Below are positions 267 to 12,964 of a DNA stretch of 64,000 bases, in pieces. This stretch comes from Lachnospiraceae bacterium (lineage in GTDB: Bacteria > Bacillota > Clostridia > Lachnospirales > Lachnospiraceae): NCBI GenBank assembly GCA_902363835.1, contig CABJBM010000009.1, forward strand, positions 62,001 through 126,000. The letters run 5' to 3'. A program made the position numbers and the translations under genes. Every line of letters starts with the position of its first letter. Position 1 is the stretch's first letter. The notes beneath the pieces were generated by a model that saw only the letters and a list, made by a program, of their open reading frames with translations, searched no databases and was not told the origin of the DNA.

Positions 267-2084
267 TTACAATGTTTTGATAAACCAGTTAATAATCCGG
301 TTCCAGGTTTTTCTGATTCCATAAAAGACCAGTTCCCCTCCCTTCAGTTGATTATCATAAAGTACATTCCCGCTGTCATCTTTGATCAGTAGATTTTCAA
401 AAACGCCGTCGTAAACATTGTCTGCAATATTTCTCTGACTGTAACCAAAGTTTTCAAATGCCGACTCCAAATAAAGGGCGCCGGCCTGCGCATTGGTTAC
501 TGCCAGGTCTGATACCGCATTTCTTCCGTCAATATCAATGGAAAGATGGCTGCCCTTTAAGGTGATATCAAGCTTCCGGCTGCCACTTTCATTGATTTGA
601 AAATCCGGAACATAATCCTTATCCGGCAAATCAGACTCTTCCTTTTGTTTAATTTCCGCCTTTACCTCTTCTATATTGTAGCTTAGCTGGCTGTTGTTTT
701 TGTATAAAGTTTCCGCTCCCTTTAAAGCTTCCAGTTCATCTTCCCTGACTGTTTTAAATACCTTCCCATCGAATTCTGCCAGATCTGTTTCATAAATAGA
801 GGAACCATTGTCATAGACGGACAACACATTATTCTTCAGCTCTATTATCACGGACTTTTCCAGGGCATCCCCTGCCCTTAAACAGACTCTCTGTATCCCC
901 AGGATGTTTCCTTTCAAATCAACGGAAAGGGAAAGGTCCTGGAATGTCCTGCTCTCTTCCAGCCGCAAAAGGCCATGACCTTCCGGTTCAGAAGTCAAAA
1001 CGATCTGGCTGTCCCTAAATTCCCCGGCTCCTTTGAGAATTTCCCAATCAGCCTTTCTTTTTTTATCCCCTTCTTCAAAAATCATATCCCTGCCTGTATC
1101 AGCTTTGATTCTCATTAACAGATGGTTGGGATACCAGTAAGTCTGAGGCTGCATTCTGGTCAAGTCATACCGGTTGGTCTCTCTGTCATTTTTAGAATCC
1201 CCCTCCCGGTTAAAATTCATGTAAAAGAATTTTTTGATCCATTCTTCATTGACCTGGCTCACTTTTTCGTGGTTTCCAAATCTTCCTGTATTGGCATGCA
1301 TTAAAACATAAAGAACCGGAAGCCCTCCCAATTTATTTGTATACACATTTTCCATCAATTGATAATCCTTGCTTATCCGTTCCTTCATTTGTCCCTGGGT
1401 CTCCTTGGGAATGGATTCTTCATCGCGAATATAATCCATCAGGTACTGATTGTAATTTCTTCCCAGATATTGACGCATATCATTGAACTCCTGAAGGTTC
1501 AATTCTCCCAGATAGTGATCATACCGGTCAAACACGTTAATGTAGGACAGGCGGTAGCCATTGGTCCCCCATTCCCAAAAACTGGATTCTTTAAGCTTTT
1601 CCAAGTCTTCAGGCAATAAAAAGGCGTCATCCTTGCCTTCTAATTTCTGGCCATAGCTCAATATTGTGGCAAAGTAATTGTACTTCTCTAATATTTTAGA
1701 AGAAAAGACAGCCGTATCCCGCCTTCCATCTTCAAACATCAGGAACAGGGAATGTTCAGGCAAAGGAGTTCCTTTGCTGTAATATTCCATTATGTCTTTC
1801 TGGGATATGGTAACATATCCATTGCGCTTTAAGGCATTGATATGTTCCTCCAGCCTTTGGGTGCTGATTAAAGTCGAAGTTCCATCCCGATCCACTCCAA
1901 AATAAGACAAAGCAATAAAACCCGGATCTCCCTGTTTTACCCGTTCTTCCTCCTGAAAAGGAATGTACCGATTGGCCATGAAAAAAGCACGGAATAAAAG
2001 TACAAGAAGCACTGCCAGAATGATTGCCTGTATCACGCTCCCTATTGTTTTTCTCTGATCCTTTGATAATTTAACCACCTTCAT
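267..2084 (-). CDS. membrane-anchored degenerate polysaccharide deacetylase-like (PgaB-type) protein
   Basis: 605 residues. One N-terminal membrane segment at about 14-37 predicts an extracellular body. Residues about 55-260 look like the deacetylase module of PgaB-type proteins: a strand ending LMFEDG stands where active enzymes have FDDG, followed by an ATILSYG strand. The histidine motif expected after the second strand is absent (WEWGTNGYR is seen), so metal binding and catalysis look lost. The last 250 residues are beta-rich and could bind glycan; I do not recognise a named family there. The start has AAGGAG just upstream. It lies 29 bases after the GT2 synthase in the same operon, suggesting an accessory role in polymer modification or export. 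Family assignment is moderate; loss of activity is inference. Confidence 0.65.
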   Translation of the reverse strand: MKVVKLSKDQRKTIGSVIQAIILAVLLVLLFRAFFMANRYIPFQEEERVKQGDPGFIALSYFGVDRDGTSTLISTQRLEEHINALKRNGYVTISQKDIMEYYSKGTPLPEHSLFLMFEDGRRDTAVFSSKILEKYNYFATILSYGQKLEGKDDAFLLPEDLEKLKESSFWEWGTNGYRLSYINVFDRYDHYLGELNLQEFNDMRQYLGRNYNQYLMDYIRDEESIPKETQGQMKERISKDYQLMENVYTNKLGGLPVLYVLMHANTGRFGNHEKVSQVNEEWIKKFFYMNFNREGDSKNDRETNRYDLTRMQPQTYWYPNHLLMRIKADTGRDMIFEEGDKKRKADWEILKGAGEFRDSQIVLTSEPEGHGLLRLEESRTFQDLSLSVDLKGNILGIQRVCLRAGDALEKSVIIELKNNVLSVYDNGSSIYETDLAEFDGKVFKTVREDELEALKGAETLYKNNSQLSYNIEEVKAEIKQKEESDLPDKDYVPDFQINESGSRKLDITLKGSHLSIDIDGRNAVSDLAVTNAQAGALYLESAFENFGYSQRNIADNVYDGVFENLLIKDDSGNVLYDNQLKGGELVFYGIRKTWNRIINWFIKTL

Positions 2085-2113: not shown

Positions 2114-3982
2114 TCACCCTGCTTTTTTCTGTGTTGTCCCCTTCCTCTTCTCCTCTTTCCTGCGCTTTTCATCTGCATCTCTTTGGGTCATCCTGGTGCC
2201 CCATGTGGATTTCCAGAAAGTAACCCAGGCCACTGGCATCTGCCAAAGTAAAACCGCTTCATAGTACAGGCAGAAGGCCAGGCCGAAAATCCAGGTAGTG
2301 CTTCTGCGCAGCAGCAGCTGGGCCATACTCATGAGAAATGCCATCAAGAGAAGGCCAACCAAAAATGTGGTTGGGAACACATGGCGGGTAACAGGAACAT
2401 AAACCAGATTATACAAAACAACAACAGGAGCCATAACAGGCACAAGCAGGCCTATATAAAAAAGGGCAGCGGCAAATGGTTCCTTTTTAAACATAAAGCT
2501 TCCTGCAATTAAAGATTCTCTCAGCCATGAACGCTTCCATCTCATCTGCTGCTTTAAAAACACCTGGTACTTGTTTGGCACTATGGTCTGACAGACCGCA
2601 CTGTCCTGGTAAGAAGTCCTGTGGTGCCTTAAAATAAAGTTGGTCATGGAACGATCATCCCCAAAGGTCGCTTTCTGGCCTAAAAAGCTTTGATTCAGCC
2701 AGCGTTCCATATTGTCCATGACAAGCTGCTTTTTATAGCAGGAGAGAGGACCTGACAGGCAGGTAACCACGTCAAAATAGGCTTCCGCCGCTTTCATAAT
2801 CCGGAAGGCGATATAGTATCTGACAGCCTGCATCTTTGTCAGGCCGTTGGTATAGGTATTGGCCACATCCGTTCTTCCGGACACCCCTCCCATCTTTGGA
2901 TCCTTAAATGGCTGCACCAGGTTCCTGATGGCAAAAGGATCTAAAAAACTGTCTGAATCAACAAACACCAGAAGCTCATGTTTTGCTTCCCGGGCGCCTG
3001 CAGCAAGAGCTTCTCTTTTTCCTGCATTTTTGTTTAAAGCTATGTATTTCAGTCTGGATCTGGTTTCAAACTGCTCCCCCTCCCGGTAAAGTCTCTGGAC
3101 AACCTCTTCTATCTTTTCCAAAGACTTATCGCTGGAGCAGTCGTCAATGATAATAACCTCTATCTTATCCACAGGATAGTCCTGGTTTATGCAGCTAAGA
3201 ATGGTTTTTTGAATCCACTGCTCCTCATTAAAGCAGGGGATCAGTATTGTCACTCCCGGTGTAAAATTAATATCCAGAGGAACTTCCCGATATAATGCCC
3301 CGAACAAATAGCGGCTGAGTAAAAACACGGCAGCCATAATGCTGTACAAATACAGCAATTTATTAAATTTAAAGTAAATCACGCTTTCCGCGCGCATCAG
3401 AATTACAAATGCGCTGATAAAAAACAGCAGCATGCTGGATATCATCAGCATATACTTACCCCTTTTCTTTGCTGAATAAAGGGATAGGGGAATTTTAAAG
3501 AGAAATCCGCAGTTGTAAGAGGAATCCTTCAGCAGCTGCCACCTGGCAACAGACGCCTTTATTTTGACCTTCATTTCCAGGCCCTCAGGCAGTGTCCCAG
3601 GGATAATTTCAAATTTCAGCAGGATTTGATCCGCTTTCTTTAAAATATCCATAGTTTCTTTGGAAGGTATATTCAATAAAATTCCCGTCATGGAAATATC
3701 CAGGCCTTTGCATACCATTCTTTCCTTCTTTTTTCCGGAAACGCAGACTACTTCCACATCATAATCAATCTTGTACCTTAATCCTGACTGTTTTTGTGCA
3801 ATATAATCATTGATATTGCCGCTTTTAAATGTTTTTCCCCTTCTGTCTGTATTGGTCCTCACATGGGTCTTATCCGGAACATTGGACAGTAACCTTCTGT
3901 CTTCTTTTAACTCTGCAAGAACCTCTTTTGAAATCCGTCCTTTTTCTGTTTTATTGTGGTGAAGATTCATTTTCTTTTTCAT
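2114..3982 (-). CDS. processive family 2 glycosyltransferase with N-terminal PilZ domain
   Basis: 622 residues. An N-terminal PilZ-like domain (about 60-170) contains the LDISMTG signature (DxSxxG), which in known PilZ domains helps bind cyclic di-GMP; the arginine pair RxxxR is not clearly intact. Two membrane segments follow (about 178-205 and 212-232), then a GT2 catalytic domain: ILIPCFNEE, IIDDCSS, VDSDS, the acceptor-site GDD and the QQMRW (QxxRW) motif of processive synthases such as cellulose and hyaluronan synthases. Several C-terminal membrane helices could form the polymer channel. It should polymerise and translocate a polysaccharide from UDP-sugar in the membrane. It overlaps the upstream deacetylase-fusion gene by 32 bases. 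A second in-frame ATG at 3970 sits better behind AGGG and may be the true start. PilZ ahead of the GT2 domain differs from BcsA, where it is C-terminal. Confidence 0.85.
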   Translation of the reverse strand: MKKKMNLHHNKTEKGRISKEVLAELKEDRRLLSNVPDKTHVRTNTDRRGKTFKSGNINDYIAQKQSGLRYKIDYDVEVVCVSGKKKERMVCKGLDISMTGILLNIPSKETMDILKKADQILLKFEIIPGTLPEGLEMKVKIKASVARWQLLKDSSYNCGFLFKIPLSLYSAKKRGKYMLMISSMLLFFISAFVILMRAESVIYFKFNKLLYLYSIMAAVFLLSRYLFGALYREVPLDINFTPGVTILIPCFNEEQWIQKTILSCINQDYPVDKIEVIIIDDCSSDKSLEKIEEVVQRLYREGEQFETRSRLKYIALNKNAGKREALAAGAREAKHELLVFVDSDSFLDPFAIRNLVQPFKDPKMGGVSGRTDVANTYTNGLTKMQAVRYYIAFRIMKAAEAYFDVVTCLSGPLSCYKKQLVMDNMERWLNQSFLGQKATFGDDRSMTNFILRHHRTSYQDSAVCQTIVPNKYQVFLKQQMRWKRSWLRESLIAGSFMFKKEPFAAALFYIGLLVPVMAPVVVLYNLVYVPVTRHVFPTTFLVGLLLMAFLMSMAQLLLRRSTTWIFGLAFCLYYEAVLLWQMPVAWVTFWKSTWGTRMTQRDADEKRRKEEKRKGTTQKKAG

Positions 3983-6900
3983 CCCTATTCAATTCACTGG
4001 CAGTTGCTTTCTGAGTTTCCTTCGCGGCGGCCTCAGCAGGCGCAGCCTTTTTCTCTAATGGTTTCGACAAATAATTGCTTATTTTGTCAAACCGGTATCC
4101 CTGACTGAGCAATGCAGGAATCGCAGTATCAAGTGCCTTTGCCGTAATATCAGGATCAGCAGAAGGCCCATTGAAATCATCGGACATGTGCAGGATTATC
4201 ACGCTTCCATTTTGCAGAGAATATCTGGAGCCGTCACCTCTCCTGATGCCCTTTAACAGCTCATCAGACAGCTCCCGGGGTGTCTTTGCATCGTAATCAT
4301 GGCTGCTGAAGTCACCGCTTAGAATGTATTCAAATCCCATATCAAATATAGCTTCCATGCCGTTTTTGCTCATAGCCAGGGTGGGTGGGCGGAACACCTT
4401 TGTCAGTACAGGCCTGCCGTCGGTTGCCATGTCTCCCACAACGGAACTGAGTTTTCTGTAAGACAGAACCAGATCCGCCATTCTTTCTGTCTCCTCTTCA
4501 CTGCTTAAGGAGTTATAAAACGGCCTCTTCTCCCGCCTGGATTTGATCTGGTCATAAATAGCATAAGGGAGATGACTATCCGTATGGGTTCCAACATCAT
4601 GACCTTCCGCAGCAATGGCCCTCAGCAGGTTGGGGTTTTCCTCGATACGATTGGTCCTTATGTGAAAGCTGGCCTTGATCCCGTATTTTCTCAGTACGTA
4701 CAGGATCTGGTTGACCGGCTTATCAGATCCCCAGTCATCAAAGGTTAAAAAAAGCACCTTTTCATTTGTAAACCGTCCGGTCATATCTGTCAGCTTCAGT
4801 TCTCCCGGGGAAAATCCAGGCAGTACATTTTCATCGCTGTAATCAGGGCTTCCTACATACCGTTCCTTTATGGTTTTGAACTTTTCCTCATCCGTAAACC
4901 AGGCCATATGCCCTGGAGCAATATCACCCACTCCGGCTGTATAATCAGCTTCCTTTACAGGGTACTGGTACAATCCCGGACTGTTCCTCAATTCTCCCAC
5001 GCTGACAATGCGGTACCTTGATCCGTTGTTTTCGATCCCATCCTCATAGGAGTTTGTCAAAACACGGTTCTTATAAACATCCAGAAGCAAATTCCCTATG
5101 AGATCTTTGTCACTATAGTAATCCATGCGAAAATATACAATATAACCTCTTCTGGCAGATATATTGCCTGCGTTAAAGGAACTGGATATGACCGTTTCCA
5201 AGGTTCCATCTGGCCCAACTTTGGAATTTGCCATGGAAAGATCCTGCCATACCAGGGTGCAGCCCGCGCTTGCAATGGCTTCCGACACCTCACCTGTAAT
5301 CTCCGCCATATAAGGATATCTGACTAAAACAGGCTGTACTCCAAATTCCTTACTCAATCTTTCCTGCATGCCGGTAAGACTTTGATACACAGACTTAAAA
5401 TCATTTCCGCTTTTCCCCGTGAGGCAGAGCCCGATTTCATGCCCCCGGCTCAATATCTGTCTGATCTCTTCCTTATTCTGGTCGATCTCTTCACTGGTCA
5501 CGAAAAACGTGCCTTTTCCCTGAATCTGGTCCATCTTATTCAGGACATCATACAAGACCTCTGTCCGGCTGATCCCGGAAAAAGTGAAGGAAAGCTCCTG
5601 GCTGGTGCTGTGCACAGTATAGATCGTCTCTGCCTTCCGCCCCTGGTTATCCTGGCGTATTTTATCAAAATCAATGGAACTGACCGCTTCCCTTGGGTTT
5701 TCAGGGGAAGGGGAAAGAGATGCATAAGAAGTGTCCTGTATTTTATTTATCATATCCTGCAGAAAAGAAACACTGTAATTTTTTTTACCCAGATTCGACA
5801 GTACGTATTCTGTTACTTCCCCCACATCATTACTGATATCCAGCCTGAGGTGGATAATTTCCCCTTTTCCTATCCCTTTTCTAAAATATGTTTTTATTTC
5901 ATCTATGGACCTTCCTTCTGCCATAGGATTTTTAGAATATGTAACAAGTTCATAAGAAAGAGTTGAAGCTGCTTCCCGCACCAGATCATTATACTTTGCA
6001 TAAACAGGCATGAACAGCTTTGTATTGACGCCATATTTCTCCTTTAACAGTTTGTCAGTTTTATATATTTCAAAACATATGCCGGAAAAATCCATGTCAG
6101 ACAAATCTTTTCCGGTTAAGCCACCGTTTCCGATTTCATGGCCTTTGGCAATGATTTCTCTTACCGTGTCTTCATATTCCTCCAGTTCCCTTCCGGTAGC
6201 AAAAAAGGTGGCCTTTATATGGTTTTCTTCCAGAAGCAGTAAAACCCTCTCCACATTTTCCCGGCTGCCTATTCCTCTGAAGGTAAGGCCCACTTTACTG
6301 TCCCTGCCTCCCATGGTATGAATATCAGAAAGCTTTCCGCCATTTTTCTCTCTTAGCTCAGAAAAATCCATGGCAAAGTCCTCATCCTGATATTGGGAAA
6401 TCTCCTCTGCAAACACGGTTTCATATCCGGTTTCCACCAGGGCTTTTGACAGCCAGTCCACCACCTGAAGCAGGCGCTCCTCCTCAGTTTTTTCGTTTTT
6501 CTCTTTTTCTTCACTCTCATTTAAGGAATTGTCACTGTCTTCCTGTGTGGAGACTTCTTCCACTTCTTTGGTATATTCCGTCTCATCCAGAATTCCTGAC
6601 ATTTTAATGGTGAGCATGCTTCCCCACTTTAAGCCCTTCACATAATCAAGTGCCTGCTCATAACTGGAAAAACTCTGATAATTAAGAAATTTCCTGCTCT
6701 CAGACACGTATTCATATCCACATGCAGAAGCCGCTTCCAAAAATTCCTTTGAGCTATGAGGAAGAATCCCCTGCACCATCCCTGGCATCTCTCCTGTAAC
6801 CTGGTATAGGATATGATTTGTTTTTGCAAGATTTTCAATCAGTTTCTCTTGAGAAAGCGTTGCCAGTTCCTTCTCTCCTTTTAATCCGCTGCTGCCGATC

Positions 6901-8207
6901 CTGTTCCCTGTTTCTTTTGCTTTAAGAACAAATTCCGTATCCTCTGCCGCCGTTATTCCTGATACCATAAAGGTGGCTTTCTGTCCGTTTTCAGACAGCA
7001 GTTCCAGAACCTTTTCATTGGTTTTGCTGTCGCTTGTACCTAAAAAATTAATGGCAACCACTTTTTTCATGGTATCCACATCCGTTGCTGTTTTAGCTTC
7101 CCTTTTTTCAATCTTCATCTGGTCCAAAGCACTATTGATATCCTGGGAAGCATCGTATAAAACTTGTCCGGCAGAAAAATTGCCTGCCTGTCTTGGCTTT
7201 AACTTTGCTGCGGCAATGGCTACAGCAGAAGTAATTGCCAGTAAAAGCGCGGTTATTTTCAAATATCCTGCATACTTGCCCAAACTAATAATTTTCCTGG
7301 GTGCTTTTGAAGAAACCACAGAAGGCACTGCGTCTTCCTTAACAGATATAATCTCCATTAATTCTTCTGTTATGGAACTGACCTTATCCTCTCTGATTGG
7401 TTCCGGAACACTTTTTTTCTCCCGGGTTTTCACAGGAGAAATGGGCGCTTCTCTATCCTGAACGGCTTCTTCCATGAGAACACGAATCAGCAGTTGATAT
7501 TCACTTACCATATCATAAGCGCCATTATTGCAGAGAATGGACAATTTTTCTGCATCGGAAAGCACTTCCTGTATTCTCACGTCAATATCTTCACTGTGGG
7601 TATGGTAAATGGATTCATGATAATCTGCAGGGTCAAAATAACGCTCAAATCCGGCAAGAAGGGATTCTCCTTCATGTTTTCGGATCCATGCCACAAGATT
7701 TGAAACACAATTATAAAGGAATTCCAGCTTGGTGAGATTTTTTATATTGGAAACGACCATAGATGCATCCAAAGGAATCATGCGGGAATATTTTTTTGTC
7801 AGGTTTTCCATTTCCTGAGAAAGTTCCATGACACATTCCCGGATCAAATCTTTTCCAGTCATAATTTCATATGTATGACAGCGCAAACGGAAACAAGTCA
7901 ATTCCTTTTCGCTCAGTAAATATTCCTCAATGTCTGAGATGTGGAGGGCATATGAAAAGCGAAGATCAAGCATTGCAGACTCAAGCAGTTCGGTATCCGC
8001 CATGCCAAGCAGCTCTTTCAAAACCAAGGCGCCAACCATAACTTTTACAGATTTGTCCGGACTGGATGCCTTGCTGCCGTAAAGTGCGGAGAATATGCGC
8101 TCATCAATGATGGGAAACAGGCATTCCGCAAAATCCTTAGCCCATGTTTTTTCCAGCATATCCTTTTTGCGTTGTGTTATCTCAAACGATACATCCCTAA
8201 CATTCAT
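3951..8207 (-). CDS. IS1182-type transposase N-terminal half fused to membrane anchor and four NodB deacetylase modules
   Basis: 1418 residues with a strong AGGTGGGG site 5 bases before ATG. Residues 1-255 match the front half of IS1182-type transposases: the DUF772 region (LYGSKASSPDKSVKVMVGAL, then LKELLGMADTELLESAMLDLRF), the first catalytic-Asp motif LDASMVVSNIK, and the later EYQLLIRVL segment. The match ends where the transposase core should continue. A Lys/Pro/Glu linker leads to one membrane helix (about 311-336), then four NodB-like modules starting near 378, 635, 869 and 1145. The first three have NFLG, TFRG and TFSG in place of FDDG and lack metal histidines. The fourth has TFDDW, HDVGTHTDSH, FRPP and ILHMSDD, i.e. 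a complete active site. Predicted topology is cytoplasmic transposase-like domain and extracellular deacetylase. It sits between the sugar dehydrogenase and the synthase, arguing for polymer N- or O-deacetylation. Confidence 0.85.
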   Translation of the reverse strand: MNVRDVSFEITQRKKDMLEKTWAKDFAECLFPIIDERIFSALYGSKASSPDKSVKVMVGALVLKELLGMADTELLESAMLDLRFSYALHISDIEEYLLSEKELTCFRLRCHTYEIMTGKDLIRECVMELSQEMENLTKKYSRMIPLDASMVVSNIKNLTKLEFLYNCVSNLVAWIRKHEGESLLAGFERYFDPADYHESIYHTHSEDIDVRIQEVLSDAEKLSILCNNGAYDMVSEYQLLIRVLMEEAVQDREAPISPVKTREKKSVPEPIREDKVSSITEELMEIISVKEDAVPSVVSSKAPRKIISLGKYAGYLKITALLLAITSAVAIAAAKLKPRQAGNFSAGQVLYDASQDINSALDQMKIEKREAKTATDVDTMKKVVAINFLGTSDSKTNEKVLELLSENGQKATFMVSGITAAEDTEFVLKAKETGNRIGSSGLKGEKELATLSQEKLIENLAKTNHILYQVTGEMPGMVQGILPHSSKEFLEAASACGYEYVSESRKFLNYQSFSSYEQALDYVKGLKWGSMLTIKMSGILDETEYTKEVEEVSTQEDSDNSLNESEEKEKNEKTEEERLLQVVDWLSKALVETGYETVFAEEISQYQDEDFAMDFSELREKNGGKLSDIHTMGGRDSKVGLTFRGIGSRENVERVLLLLEENHIKATFFATGRELEEYEDTVREIIAKGHEIGNGGLTGKDLSDMDFSGICFEIYKTDKLLKEKYGVNTKLFMPVYAKYNDLVREAASTLSYELVTYSKNPMAEGRSIDEIKTYFRKGIGKGEIIHLRLDISNDVGEVTEYVLSNLGKKNYSVSFLQDMINKIQDTSYASLSPSPENPREAVSSIDFDKIRQDNQGRKAETIYTVHSTSQELSFTFSGISRTEVLYDVLNKMDQIQGKGTFFVTSEEIDQNKEEIRQILSRGHEIGLCLTGKSGNDFKSVYQSLTGMQERLSKEFGVQPVLVRYPYMAEITGEVSEAIASAGCTLVWQDLSMANSKVGPDGTLETVISSSFNAGNISARRGYIVYFRMDYYSDKDLIGNLLLDVYKNRVLTNSYEDGIENNGSRYRIVSVGELRNSPGLYQYPVKEADYTAGVGDIAPGHMAWFTDEEKFKTIKERYVGSPDYSDENVLPGFSPGELKLTDMTGRFTNEKVLFLTFDDWGSDKPVNQILYVLRKYGIKASFHIRTNRIEENPNLLRAIAAEGHDVGTHTDSHLPYAIYDQIKSRREKRPFYNSLSSEEETERMADLVLSYRKLSSVVGDMATDGRPVLTKVFRPPTLAMSKNGMEAIFDMGFEYILSGDFSSHDYDAKTPRELSDELLKGIRRGDGSRYSLQNGSVIILHMSDDFNGPSADPDITAKALDTAIPALLSQGYRFDKISNYLSKPLEKKAAPAEAAAKETQKATASELNRDEKENESSPQ

Positions 8208-8257
8208 ATTTTCCCCACCTCTTTTCCTTCAATCTCATATCACAAATTGCACCCTTT

Positions 8258-9571
8258 TTAAAGGCTCCAATAAAAATAGCCTGATTCACGCAGCTGTTTT
8301 CCATTAAAAATGTTTTTCACATCAATAACAACCCTTCCCGAATCAGGAAAATCCCTAAAAAAGCTTCCTAATTGTTCTGTACTGATTTCTAAAAATTCCT
8401 TATGAGAAACAGCAAATACAATCCCATCCGCTTCTTTTACTTCCTCCATCTTTACAACATGTATCCCATAATCCTTTTCTGTCAGTTCCCCAAGGTAGGG
8501 ATCCACCACTTTCACTGAAACCTCATATTCCCTTAGCCGTTCCACAATGTCCAGTACTTTCGAATTTCTGATATCCGGACAGTTTTCCTTAAACGTAAAT
8601 CCAAAGACATAAACCAAAGCATTCCTTACCAGCTTATTTGCTTTGATCAGCTGTTTTACGGTCATATCCGCTACATATTCTCCCATGCTGTCATTGATCT
8701 TTCTCCCTGATAAAATAATCTGGGAATGGTATCCAAGACTCTCCGCCTGATAAATAAAATAATAGGGATCTATCCCTATGCAGTGACCGCCAACCAGCCC
8801 GGGAGTAAATCCCAATGCATTCCACTTGGTATTCATGGCATCCAGCACTTCCTTTGTACTGATCCCCATTTTATCAAAAACAACGGCCAATTCATTCATA
8901 AATGCAATATTAATATCTCTTTGCGCATTTTCCACCAGCTTGGCGGCTTCCGCAATTTTTATGCTTCCTGCGCGGTAAACACCTGCCTCAATAATCAGTT
9001 CATAGATCCCAGCGATCTCTTCCAGGGTTTCTTCATCCATCCCTGAAACGATTTTAACAATATTGCTTAAGATATGTACCTTATCACCGGGATTAATCCG
9101 TTCCGGAGAATATCCCACCTTAAAATCCCTGCCACAGACCAGCCCTGACATCTCTTCCAATATTGGAACACAAATATCCTCTGTAACTCCCGGATAAACG
9201 GTGGATTCAAATACTACAATGCTGCCCCTGGATAAATTTCGTCCAACGATCCTGCAGGCATTTGATAAAGGTCCTAAATCAGGGGTTTTATCCTTATGTA
9301 TGGGCGTAGGAACTGCTACCACAAGAAACTTAGCCTCTTTAAGCCGTTTTTCATCTGCAGTAAATTCCATATCCAAATTTTTAATATCTTCTCCAACTTC
9401 GTTTGTTATGTCTATTCCCTGTAAATATGCCTCAATCTTTTCTGAGTTGGTATCAAAACCAATGGTTTTAACCTTTTTGGAAAATGCTGCGGCAATAGGA
9501 AATCCCACATAGCCCAGCCCAACAACAGCTATATTTTCTTTCCTGTCAACAATTTTATGGTACAGTGTCAT
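8258..9571 (-). CDS. UDP-N-acetylhexosamine 6-dehydrogenase family (WbpA/WbpO/TviB-like)
   Basis: 437 residues, cytoplasmic. An N-terminal Rossmann fold (VVGLGYVGFPIA) binds NAD; the central domain carries the catalytic-cysteine motif GGHCIGIDPYYF, typical of enzymes oxidising UDP-HexNAc C6 to the uronic acid (UDP-glucose dehydrogenases usually differ here). The C-terminal UDP-binding domain has FGFTFKENCPDIRNSK. ATG 9571 is preferred over the upstream TTG because AGGGAG lies 6 bases before it. It is the first gene of the exopolysaccharide operon and most likely supplies a HexNAc-uronate donor to the GT2 synthase, which would fit a deacetylase acting on acetylated sugars. Which epimer (GlcNAc, GalNAc or ManNAc) is used cannot be told by eye. 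Confidence 0.88.
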   Translation of the reverse strand: MTLYHKIVDRKENIAVVGLGYVGFPIAAAFSKKVKTIGFDTNSEKIEAYLQGIDITNEVGEDIKNLDMEFTADEKRLKEAKFLVVAVPTPIHKDKTPDLGPLSNACRIVGRNLSRGSIVVFESTVYPGVTEDICVPILEEMSGLVCGRDFKVGYSPERINPGDKVHILSNIVKIVSGMDEETLEEIAGIYELIIEAGVYRAGSIKIAEAAKLVENAQRDINIAFMNELAVVFDKMGISTKEVLDAMNTKWNALGFTPGLVGGHCIGIDPYYFIYQAESLGYHSQIILSGRKINDSMGEYVADMTVKQLIKANKLVRNALVYVFGFTFKENCPDIRNSKVLDIVERLREYEVSVKVVDPYLGELTEKDYGIHVVKMEEVKEADGIVFAVSHKEFLEISTEQLGSFFRDFPDSGRVVIDVKNIFNGKQLRESGYFYWSL

Positions 9572-9665
9572 GCTATCTCCCTTTCTCAATAAAACACTTT
9601 GCTGTAAACTGAGAGGAACCAGACCTCAAGGAATTTGCTGTTCATGACAGCTTTCTGATAGATGT

Positions 9666-11242: not shown

Positions 11243-12964
11243 TTAAGGTTCCTGTTTTTCCACCAAAGGAACCTTCTCCTTTGTAGTTACATCAAACAGA
11301 CCTTTATCACTTATTTTTAGCTCCGGTGAAACCAGAAGTGTCAGAGTGGAAATGGACATAATGACATTGCTGTTTACATATCCCATTGCCTCAATTTCCT
11401 TTCTCACCTCACCCAGTTCCTCCGAAAGCTCTGAAAGATTTCCGTCGAAAATAATTCCCCCTACCGGAAGGGCCGCACAAGCCGTGATCCTGCCTTCCCG
11501 GGCCGTTACATATCCGCCCTGCATATGGACTGCCCGGTTCTGGGCAAGCACCATGTCTTCCACTGAATTTCCAAGCACCAGCAGATTATGGCTGTCATGG
11601 CTCCAGGTGGTTGCAACCGCTCCGGGAGACTTTAAGGCATGTTCCACAAGCCCATAGGAAACGTCTCCTGTCTTTCCATGGCGTTCAAATACCACTGCAA
11701 GGCAGAGTCCTGCCTCCTGCCAGCATATGCACCTGTTCCGAATGGGAATTTCCCGTTTCACATGCCTGACCCTTGTTCCAAATTCCTGGATCTGCATGAC
11801 ATTGACGGTTGCTGTACCCTCCCGTATTTCGCACCGGTTCAGTTTAAAATCAGAAGCCAGGGCAAGACGGCATTTTACAGACTGGTAAAAATGATCCGGG
11901 AAAACTGCCTTTGGAGAGTCCGGACTTTTTTTATGCTGCTTACCGTTTTTATAAACCGAAGAAGGTACAAAACTTACCAGATCATCAAGGATAACAAAAT
12001 CCGCCAGCTTCCCGGGAGCGATCATCCCCCTGTCATCAAGGCCCATTCTCCGGGCAGGTGTCAGGGTGGCACAGTAAATGGCCTTTTCCGGTGGCATCCC
12101 CTGCTCTACCGCCAACGCAAGGATCTTGTTCAAATGGCCCTTTGCCAGATGGTCCGGCATGGTATCATCCGTAACAAGGGCAACATTTTCATAAAGATCG
12201 TGGGATATCACGGTTTCCACCACATCAGGAGTCAGGGATTTTGCCTGCAGCTCTAAAAACATACCCATGTCCGTCTTTTCCATAACCGACTCCCTTGTCT
12301 GCTGGGTGTGGTCCGCATCCACGCCGCCTCTGATAAAGCCTGCCAGGGCATCTCCTGACAGGGCGGGGCAATGCCCTTCGATTCTTAAGGGGCGCCCGGC
12401 CTTCTGGCACAGGCTGACAATGCGTTTGATTAAAGTATCTTCCTCTGAAACCAGGTCTAAGTCATTCATCACTTCTCCAAGGCAGATGACTCTGTCATCC
12501 TTTAAAAGCTCCAGAACCTCTTCTTCCCCGATTTGTCCGCCTGAGGTCTCCAGACAACTTCCTGTGGAAGGAACGCTGGACGGAATCCCGTAATAGATGT
12601 CCAGTTCTGTTTCCTGTTCCATAAAGCTTTTTATTCCTTCCAGTCCATACACATTGGCGATCTCATGGGGATCAGCAACCACACAGGTGACTCCCCAGGG
12701 CAGAACTGCTCTGGAAAACTCCCCCGGATATGTCATGGAGCTTTCAATATGCATATGAATATCGATCAATCCCGGTATGATATATTTTCCAGTCCCATCC
12801 ACCACACATTCCGCCTCATAAGGAATACTCTTTTTATCCCTATGATATGAGGAGGGGGAAATGTCGTAAAACCTTTCCCCCACAACCGCAATGTCCATTT
12901 TTTCAAAACATTGCCTGTATGTCCGGTAGACCCATCCATTTTGAATAAGTAAGTCAACCTTCAT
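11243..12964 (-). CDS. ade: adenine deaminase
   Basis: 573 residues. Converts adenine to hypoxanthine and ammonia in purine salvage. Family marks are GLIDIHMHIESSM (metal-binding HxH followed by Glu-Ser-Ser), ADPHEIANV, CLGEVMN, EGHCPAL and the C-terminal adenine-deaminase domain (about 390-570), the last separating it from generic amidohydrolases. ATG 12964 is chosen because AAGGACAGAGAG lies upstream and it follows the substrate-binding-protein stop by 13 bases; a longer reading would overlap that gene. Its place directly after an ABC transporter suggests the transporter brings in adenine or a related base. Confidence 0.92.
   Translation of the reverse strand: MKVDLLIQNGWVYRTYRQCFEKMDIAVVGERFYDISPSSYHRDKKSIPYEAECVVDGTGKYIIPGLIDIHMHIESSMTYPGEFSRAVLPWGVTCVVADPHEIANVYGLEGIKSFMEQETELDIYYGIPSSVPSTGSCLETSGGQIGEEEVLELLKDDRVICLGEVMNDLDLVSEEDTLIKRIVSLCQKAGRPLRIEGHCPALSGDALAGFIRGGVDADHTQQTRESVMEKTDMGMFLELQAKSLTPDVVETVISHDLYENVALVTDDTMPDHLAKGHLNKILALAVEQGMPPEKAIYCATLTPARRMGLDDRGMIAPGKLADFVILDDLVSFVPSSVYKNGKQHKKSPDSPKAVFPDHFYQSVKCRLALASDFKLNRCEIREGTATVNVMQIQEFGTRVRHVKREIPIRNRCICWQEAGLCLAVVFERHGKTGDVSYGLVEHALKSPGAVATTWSHDSHNLLVLGNSVEDMVLAQNRAVHMQGGYVTAREGRITACAALPVGGIIFDGNLSELSEELGEVRKEIEAMGYVNSNVIMSISTLTLLVSPELKISDKGLFDVTTKEKVPLVEKQEP

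Follow-up and report, generated by a model that had tools for sequence, protein, structure and literature searches.

In Lacrimispora and close relatives, the front half of an insertion sequence (IS) transposase is now a conserved inner part of a surface sugar-modifying enzyme. The gene concerned lies in a stretch of 64,000 nucleotides, here called the window, from a Lachnospiraceae bacterium (GenBank assembly GCA_902363835.1, contig CABJBM010000009.1, positions 62,001 to 126,000), where 3951–8207 on the minus strand is a single open frame of 1418 codons from ATG. An earlier note, made from the sequence alone, had described one frame with the start of an IS1182-type transposase, a membrane helix and four NodB modules; all of these parts could be located, and the good ribosome-binding site reported at the transposase start, GAGGTG, is indeed present (Table 1).

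As judged by sequence comparison, the match between the N-terminal part (N part) and IS1182 transposases is far beyond chance. A profile of the first ~330 residues of four fusion clusters, searched against 5.8 billion proteins with scoring of the best 7999 candidates by shared words, matched at least 49 proteins at E ≤ 0.01; PF05598 (DUF772) is present in 46 of these and the transposase domain PF13751 in 41. The top match was a 283-aa front-half protein, P0005 (E 3.8e-90); the best full-length transposase (E 2.7e-84, 49% identity) aligns directly with fusion residues 1–263. By Pfam alone, DUF772 is below threshold both in the window fusion (residues 50–111, E 0.0017, 18.8 bits against a cut-off of 23.1) and in three fused relatives (E 0.0088–0.015), so that the DUF772/IS1182 assignment of the earlier note is upheld by the profile search and not by the Pfam model. 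Pfam listed no match to the DDE core (PF13751 or PF01609) in the 1418-aa protein at E ≤ 1. The AlphaFold2 model of the N part, built from 53 aligned sequences, is a mostly confident all-helical domain without a DDE core, with helices over residues ~12–253, predicted local distance difference test (pLDDT) values mostly of 79–96 by block, disorder from 252 to 317, and no strand before residue 303. Given that the helices run to ~253 and are followed by disorder, the cut appears to follow a domain border, the helical half being kept and the RNase-H strands absent. The original description, with residues 1–255 of IS1182 type, a stop ahead of the remaining DDE core and a junction near 7430, agrees with these results: homology reaches ~263, the core is absent, and transposase similarity ends at residue 253–263, that is, about 7419–7451. 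No solved structures related to DUF772 and the helical half behind it were found by sequence or fold search.

A search of 299 family genomes with the NodB part gave four matches at E ≤ 1e-30, in G001 and three other genomes. Unfused homologues in three genomes bear on the origin of the fusion. In G049, a dehydrogenase gene is followed after 24 bp by a gene for a 1129-aa deacetylase that begins directly with the membrane helix, and then by the GT2 synthase and membrane protein genes; G233 encodes an unfused deacetylase of 1088 aa ahead of both shared downstream genes, on a contig that begins before it, without a dehydrogenase there; and in G147 an 808-aa unfused form has the dehydrogenase and one additional gene on one side and those two downstream genes on the other. 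The G049 and G233 proteins start at or within ~20 residues of their helix, the three proteins contain 4, 4 and 3 NodB stretches by Pfam, and DUF772 is listed by Pfam in none of them. The GT2 synthase gene is the downstream neighbour at the fused and unfused loci read. Because the unfused homologues share the gene setting, it is simplest to suppose that the deacetylase gene is the older one and gained the transposase piece at its 5' end. In the window, the fusion ATG lies 50 bp past the stop of the UDP-glucose/GDP-mannose-type dehydrogenase gene. In two relatives, G008 and L001, the fusion gene has the leader GAGGTGAGCGAA, which is similar to the IS1182 leader GAGGTGATCGAA in L032 and at most suggests that the IS leader came along into the fusion gene of these two.

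The fusion recurs in relatives. A search with residues 1–340, restricted to proteins of 0.55–1.75 times the fusion length, returned four proteins at E ≤ 0.01, all of the same architecture (~1405–1418 aa), and the three clusters other than that of the window are 73–81% identical to it over the N part. One of them, P0002, is the fusion of genome G008 (99.9%), which sits on a 6.4-Mb contig; another, P0003, represents 67 sequences and agrees at 99.9% with the second part of the gene of L. celerecrescens 152B. N-part matches occur in three of 25 genomes of the G001 genus, namely two fusions and one decayed copy in G019. This last copy (locus L018) is IS1182-like, with 32% identity and seven stops. 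At the thresholds used, the deacetylase and the GT2 synthase are both present in the same two of these 25 genomes only; the operon itself is patchy within the genus, and none of the 25 carries it without the fusion.

The captured part is under purifying selection at a level like that of the NodB modules (ratio of nonsynonymous to synonymous substitution rates, dN/dS, 0.09–0.16). Three DNA sequences (window, G008 and L001) provide three pairs, for which dN/dS over residues 1–250 is 0.154, 0.107 and 0.094 (Fisher p 4.9e-18, 2.5e-27 and 9.6e-14). Between the window and G008, the NodB modules have values of 0.131, 0.145, 0.056 and 0.089, the membrane stretch 0.434 and the linker (259–312) 0.305; the linker values in the remaining two pairs are 0.468 and 0.129. 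Linker dN (0.221, 0.275 and 0.105) exceeds that of residues 1–258 (0.083, 0.082 and 0.023) by a factor of 2.7–4.6. In-frame capture of the piece ahead of a membrane-anchored multi-NodB protein, its conservation in relatives and selection on it are thus supported. As in recognized host–transposase fusions, we find a transposase and a host domain in frame, unfused homologues of the host part and selection across species.

We compared the four fusions with 37 full-length transposases in a common alignment (P0006 numbering). Residues invariant in all 37 and replaced in every fusion include R59, N65, Q106, P107, R115, R155 and S158, whereas W32, F36, F41, P42, D91, R93, A97, L98, G128, E172, Y175, L248 and L249 are retained. 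Position D147 of the window fusion, which we take to match the first catalytic Asp of the transposase, is D in three of the four fusions and E in P0004; around it, the R, M and S that accompany this D in 37/37 transposases have become P, L and A in all four. Transposition is impossible for the fusion, the DDE core being absent and the first catalytic Asp not strictly kept. Since invariant residues were replaced and many core positions kept, DNA-end recognition and catalysis appear to have been lost and the fold retained. The fusion therefore resembles IS1182-family transposases (PF05598 with PF13751 or PF01609) in ~263 N-terminal residues that are homologous throughout and up to about 50% identical, and differs from them in lacking the DDE core, in the replaced invariant residues, in being joined to a surface enzyme and in occurring as one N-part copy in each of the two fused genomes searched. 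The solo front half P0005 (283 aa, on six contigs) shares with the deacetylase fusions the replacement of S by A next to the first catalytic Asp; it is 76% identical to transposase P0006 over the N domain and is possibly a recent derivative.

A hydropathy scan places a single membrane helix at ~313–337, beyond which Pfam finds four Polysacc_deac_1 stretches (E 1.3e-62). The D-D and HxxxH motifs, presumably the catalytic motifs of CE4 enzymes, are present in module 4 alone, modules 1–3 having neither; the four NodB modules of the earlier note are there, with catalytic motifs in just one, and module 4 is likely, by its motifs, an active deacetylase. Sequence and fold searches match solved CE4 enzymes, with CE4 pseudoenzyme structures at the top of the fold list (enzyme-part model from seven sequences, mean pLDDT 72.5). 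In the two of three unfused relatives that have the same NodB count, the last module is by eye also the sole carrier of TFDD, so that the lone active module looks older than the fusion. With CE4 polysaccharide deacetylases (PF01522; PgdA, PdaA, PdaC) the fusion shares its NodB-like modules, the last with D-D and HxxxH, whereas the three motif-less modules and the N-terminal transposase domain set it apart.

We infer the direction of change, the cytoplasmic side, the partner and the role of the N domain as follows. In an ancestor of these Lacrimispora, an IS1182-type element would have inserted at the 5' end of a gene for a membrane-anchored polysaccharide deacetylase, within a polysaccharide operon. 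Both the ends of the element and the back half of its transposase would then have disappeared, leaving the front half joined in frame to the anchor, as the unfused homologues suggest. The kept piece, predicted to be one complete helical domain, precedes the membrane helix and is presumably cytoplasmic; module 4 would deacetylate a polymer outside the cell, and modules 1–3 may be non-catalytic binding or spacer modules. Most likely, the domain itself would mediate protein–protein contacts, by self-association or tethering, and so position the deacetylase at the membrane, possibly next to the GT2 synthase; to this role we give slightly less than even odds. For the whole explanation, IS capture together with an inner protein–protein domain of a membrane-anchored deacetylase, we estimate a probability of about 0.5. 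Several points weigh against it. In one of the three pairs, G008–L001, the linker dN/dS (0.129) is near that of the domain (0.104), and selection may act just to preserve a leader that folds and is not toxic. The residues that were replaced may have made contact with the catalytic core instead of DNA, and the net charge of the domain, the same as in transposases, gives no help. The topology comes solely from hydropathy, and basic residues flank the helix at both ends; model confidence drops at residues 41–50 and 91–100 (pLDDT 62–64).

The earlier note had left the domain as DNA- or protein-binding. The front part of a transposase is expected to recognise DNA, and R117 and R119 are retained in 4/4 fusions, as would suit a membrane-tethered protein that binds the operon promoter or the IS ends and couples the surface enzyme to its expression, like one-component membrane regulators. 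However, R59, N65, Q106, P107, R115 and R155 are replaced in every fusion, and a single left-end-like pattern for the terminal inverted repeats, derived visually from IS leaders, is absent from the window at up to three mismatches. Because the replaced invariant residues include basic and loop residues, we favour protein binding and regard a DNA binder as improbable. Somewhat less improbable, though still unlikely, is that the element gave the gene no more than a ribosome-binding site and start codon, the front half being a tolerated leader. The likeness of the G008 and L001 leader to that of the L032 element fits such expression capture, and a cut at a domain border suits a foldable leader; yet the domain is present in all four clusters, its dN is 2.7–4.6 times under that of the linker, with dN/dS of 0.09–0.16 versus 0.13–0.47, and a ribosome-binding site already exists at the unfused G049 gene.

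That the N domain might instead be an older generic helical domain common to transposases and the deacetylase, and not transposase-derived, would accord with the Pfam DUF772 score under the cut-off. We consider this very improbable in view of the identity of up to 50% over most of the fragment, the transposase DDE domain in 41 of the 49 matched proteins, the unfused deacetylase homologues that have no such domain, and a quick tree that puts the fusions in a 17-row set with 12 transposases (SH-like approximate likelihood ratio test 95); a careful tree leaves the placement of the deacetylase fusions open. An assembly join or a recent, decaying insertion has in its favour that the reading frame of the L. 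celerecrescens 152B record (L001) is broken within its NodB part, around 11464–11566. That break falls outside the transposase part, however, and the cluster nearly identical to the second part of this gene is intact and represents 67 sequences. With the domain order common to four clusters, contrary to the absence from all relatives that the earlier note had named as telling against a real fusion, with intact copies and with the G008 fusion on its 6.4-Mb contig, we reject an assembly join or a recent, decaying insertion, the probability being negligible.

The preferred explanation, capture of the IS front half by a deacetylase gene, places the event in an operon that the earlier note had called a cyclic di-GMP-type exopolysaccharide operon. 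This label is weakened: the PilZ match of the window synthase is sub-threshold (E 0.048, 14.4 bits against a cut-off of 22.5), the same holds at two of the three unfused loci (E 0.018 and 0.0017), and none is listed at the third. Orthologues of the membrane protein encoded at 267–2084 have weak sub-threshold NodB matches in L027 (E 0.0035) and L028, so that the operon may hold several degenerate deacetylase modules.

Beyond the view of the earlier note, which concerned the deacetylase fusion, we found the unfused homologues and a parallel fusion to beta-galactosidase. P0005 has matches in 24 of 397 family genomes, one of which (G292) lies inside a frame of >1200 aa that joins the front half to a GH2 beta-galactosidase (LacZ). 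Among 61 genomes of the G292 genus, another Lachnospiraceae genus, 16 rows span both parts in one match; we took 20 further loci, from 14 of those 16 genomes (G459 left aside) and from six with split matches in one frame. Both parts are in one open reading frame of 1210–1542 aa at all 21 loci, G292 included, that is, in at least 21 of the 61 genomes. Residues 1–165 of one LacZ fusion gave 19 matches among long proteins, some being the same proteins, all 19 with GH2 and 17 with precomputed PF05598. The N domain of these fusions is under strong purifying selection in the five pairs tested, which were chosen, with dN/dS of 0.065, 0.048, 0.119, 0.032 and 0.082, each below the LacZ part of the same pair. 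Transposase similarity ends at transposase residue 135–187 in the LacZ fusions and at ~271 in the deacetylase fusions, which argues for separate events; in trees each forms a clade, a shared source not being rejected. In both kinds a Lachnospiraceae glycan enzyme carries an IS1182 front half N-terminally, and these halves are related; the kinds differ in the partner, in the shorter transposase similarity of the LacZ fusions and in the loop residues, which were lost by the deacetylase fusions and are mostly kept with LacZ, where the catalytic Asp is present in only 4/19.

Front halves also occur alone. The 12 kb read at L062 contain a front-half-only copy of 267 aa (347–1150, +) and no back half; the copy lies 61 bp ahead of a gene that by eye resembles a decarboxylase-operon gene. 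Of the 11 genomes in its genus, two gave a match, one of them interrupted by a stop. Further lone front halves lie at L061 (9181–10026, +) and L032, again with no back half in what was read of these loci, and similarity in L061 and L062 ends at transposase residue 255–256, near the same domain border. The IS1182 copies at L066 and L067 have their two parts, front and back, in frames that overlap near codon 265, and are interrupted once more farther upstream; this could reflect frameshifting or decay. Some IS1182 (DUF772) elements make their transposase from two frames by programmed frameshifting, at up to 24% in E. coli tests (PMC3711429), so that in part of the family the front half can be a natural protein product; the passage in that paper does not state whether the frameshift site falls at this domain border. 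We tentatively propose, with more doubt than confidence, that the IS1182 front half suffices on its own as an assembly module and that Lachnospiraceae have attached it to glycan enzymes on at least two occasions, the solo copies in other genomes being further captures or intermediates.

Table 1. Positions of the fusion gene, its parts, its neighbours and the beta-galactosidase fusion (window coordinates unless a locus is named).
Feature	Position	Strand	Remarks
Fusion gene	3951..8207	-	1418 aa: IS1182 transposase front half + linker + membrane helix + four NodB/CE4 modules
Ribosome-binding site GAGGTG	8216..8221	-	8 nt ahead of fusion ATG
Transposase-derived domain	7419..8207	-	residues 1-263; all-helical model ~12-253; presumably cytoplasmic
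DUF772 (PF05598) stretch	7875..8060	-	residues 50-111; below Pfam cut-off
Codon of D147	7767..7769	-	presumed first catalytic Asp position of transposase
Disordered linker	7272..7418	-	residues 264-312; weak constraint (dN 0.10-0.28, three pairs, measured over 259-312)
Membrane helix	7197..7271	-	residues ~313-337; hydropathy
NodB module 1	6552..7073	-	without catalytic motifs
NodB module 2	5730..6311	-	without catalytic motifs
NodB module 3	4992..5609	-	without catalytic motifs
NodB module 4	4050..4769	-	TFDD (1155-1158), HTDSH (1208-1212)
UDP-glucose/GDP-mannose dehydrogenase family gene	8258..9589	-	upstream neighbour; also in L001, L027 (fused) and G049 (unfused)
PilZ-like (sub-threshold) + GT2 synthase	2114..3982	-	overlaps fusion 3' end by 32 nt
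Membrane protein	267..2084	-	next gene; also at related loci
Front half + GH2 beta-galactosidase fusion	L060 6248-10063	-	also L088-L107; P0054-P0072

Host–transposase fusions are a known kind in eukaryotes, with SETMAR, CSB-PGBD3 and KRABINER named in one source (PMC12062965). They share with the deacetylase fusion a transposase domain captured in frame with a host domain, whereas here the setting is bacterial, the captured piece is a whole helical front half, and the partner is a membrane-anchored carbohydrate enzyme and not a regulator of expression. Domesticated transposases, well known in eukaryotes, have seldom been described in bacteria, where TnpA-REP was called the first such case (PMC8266576); it too is a bacterial transposase adopted by its host, but it is an HuH enzyme acting on REP DNA and not a domain of a fusion protein. 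No comparable bacterial fusion appeared in the paper listings searched on DUF772, IS1182 domestication, host–transposase fusions, or transposase–deacetylase and transposase–beta-galactosidase fusions. Here an IS fragment has the look of a structural domain that is kept by selection in ordinary enzymes of the cell surface and of metabolism, and the finding gives access to DUF772 and the helical region that follows it. Because unfused genes with corresponding neighbours can serve as controls, the origin and function of the captured domain are directly testable. If the recruitment of the front half as an assembly module is true, these proteins would be a bacterial counterpart of host–transposase fusion as a route to new enzyme architecture.

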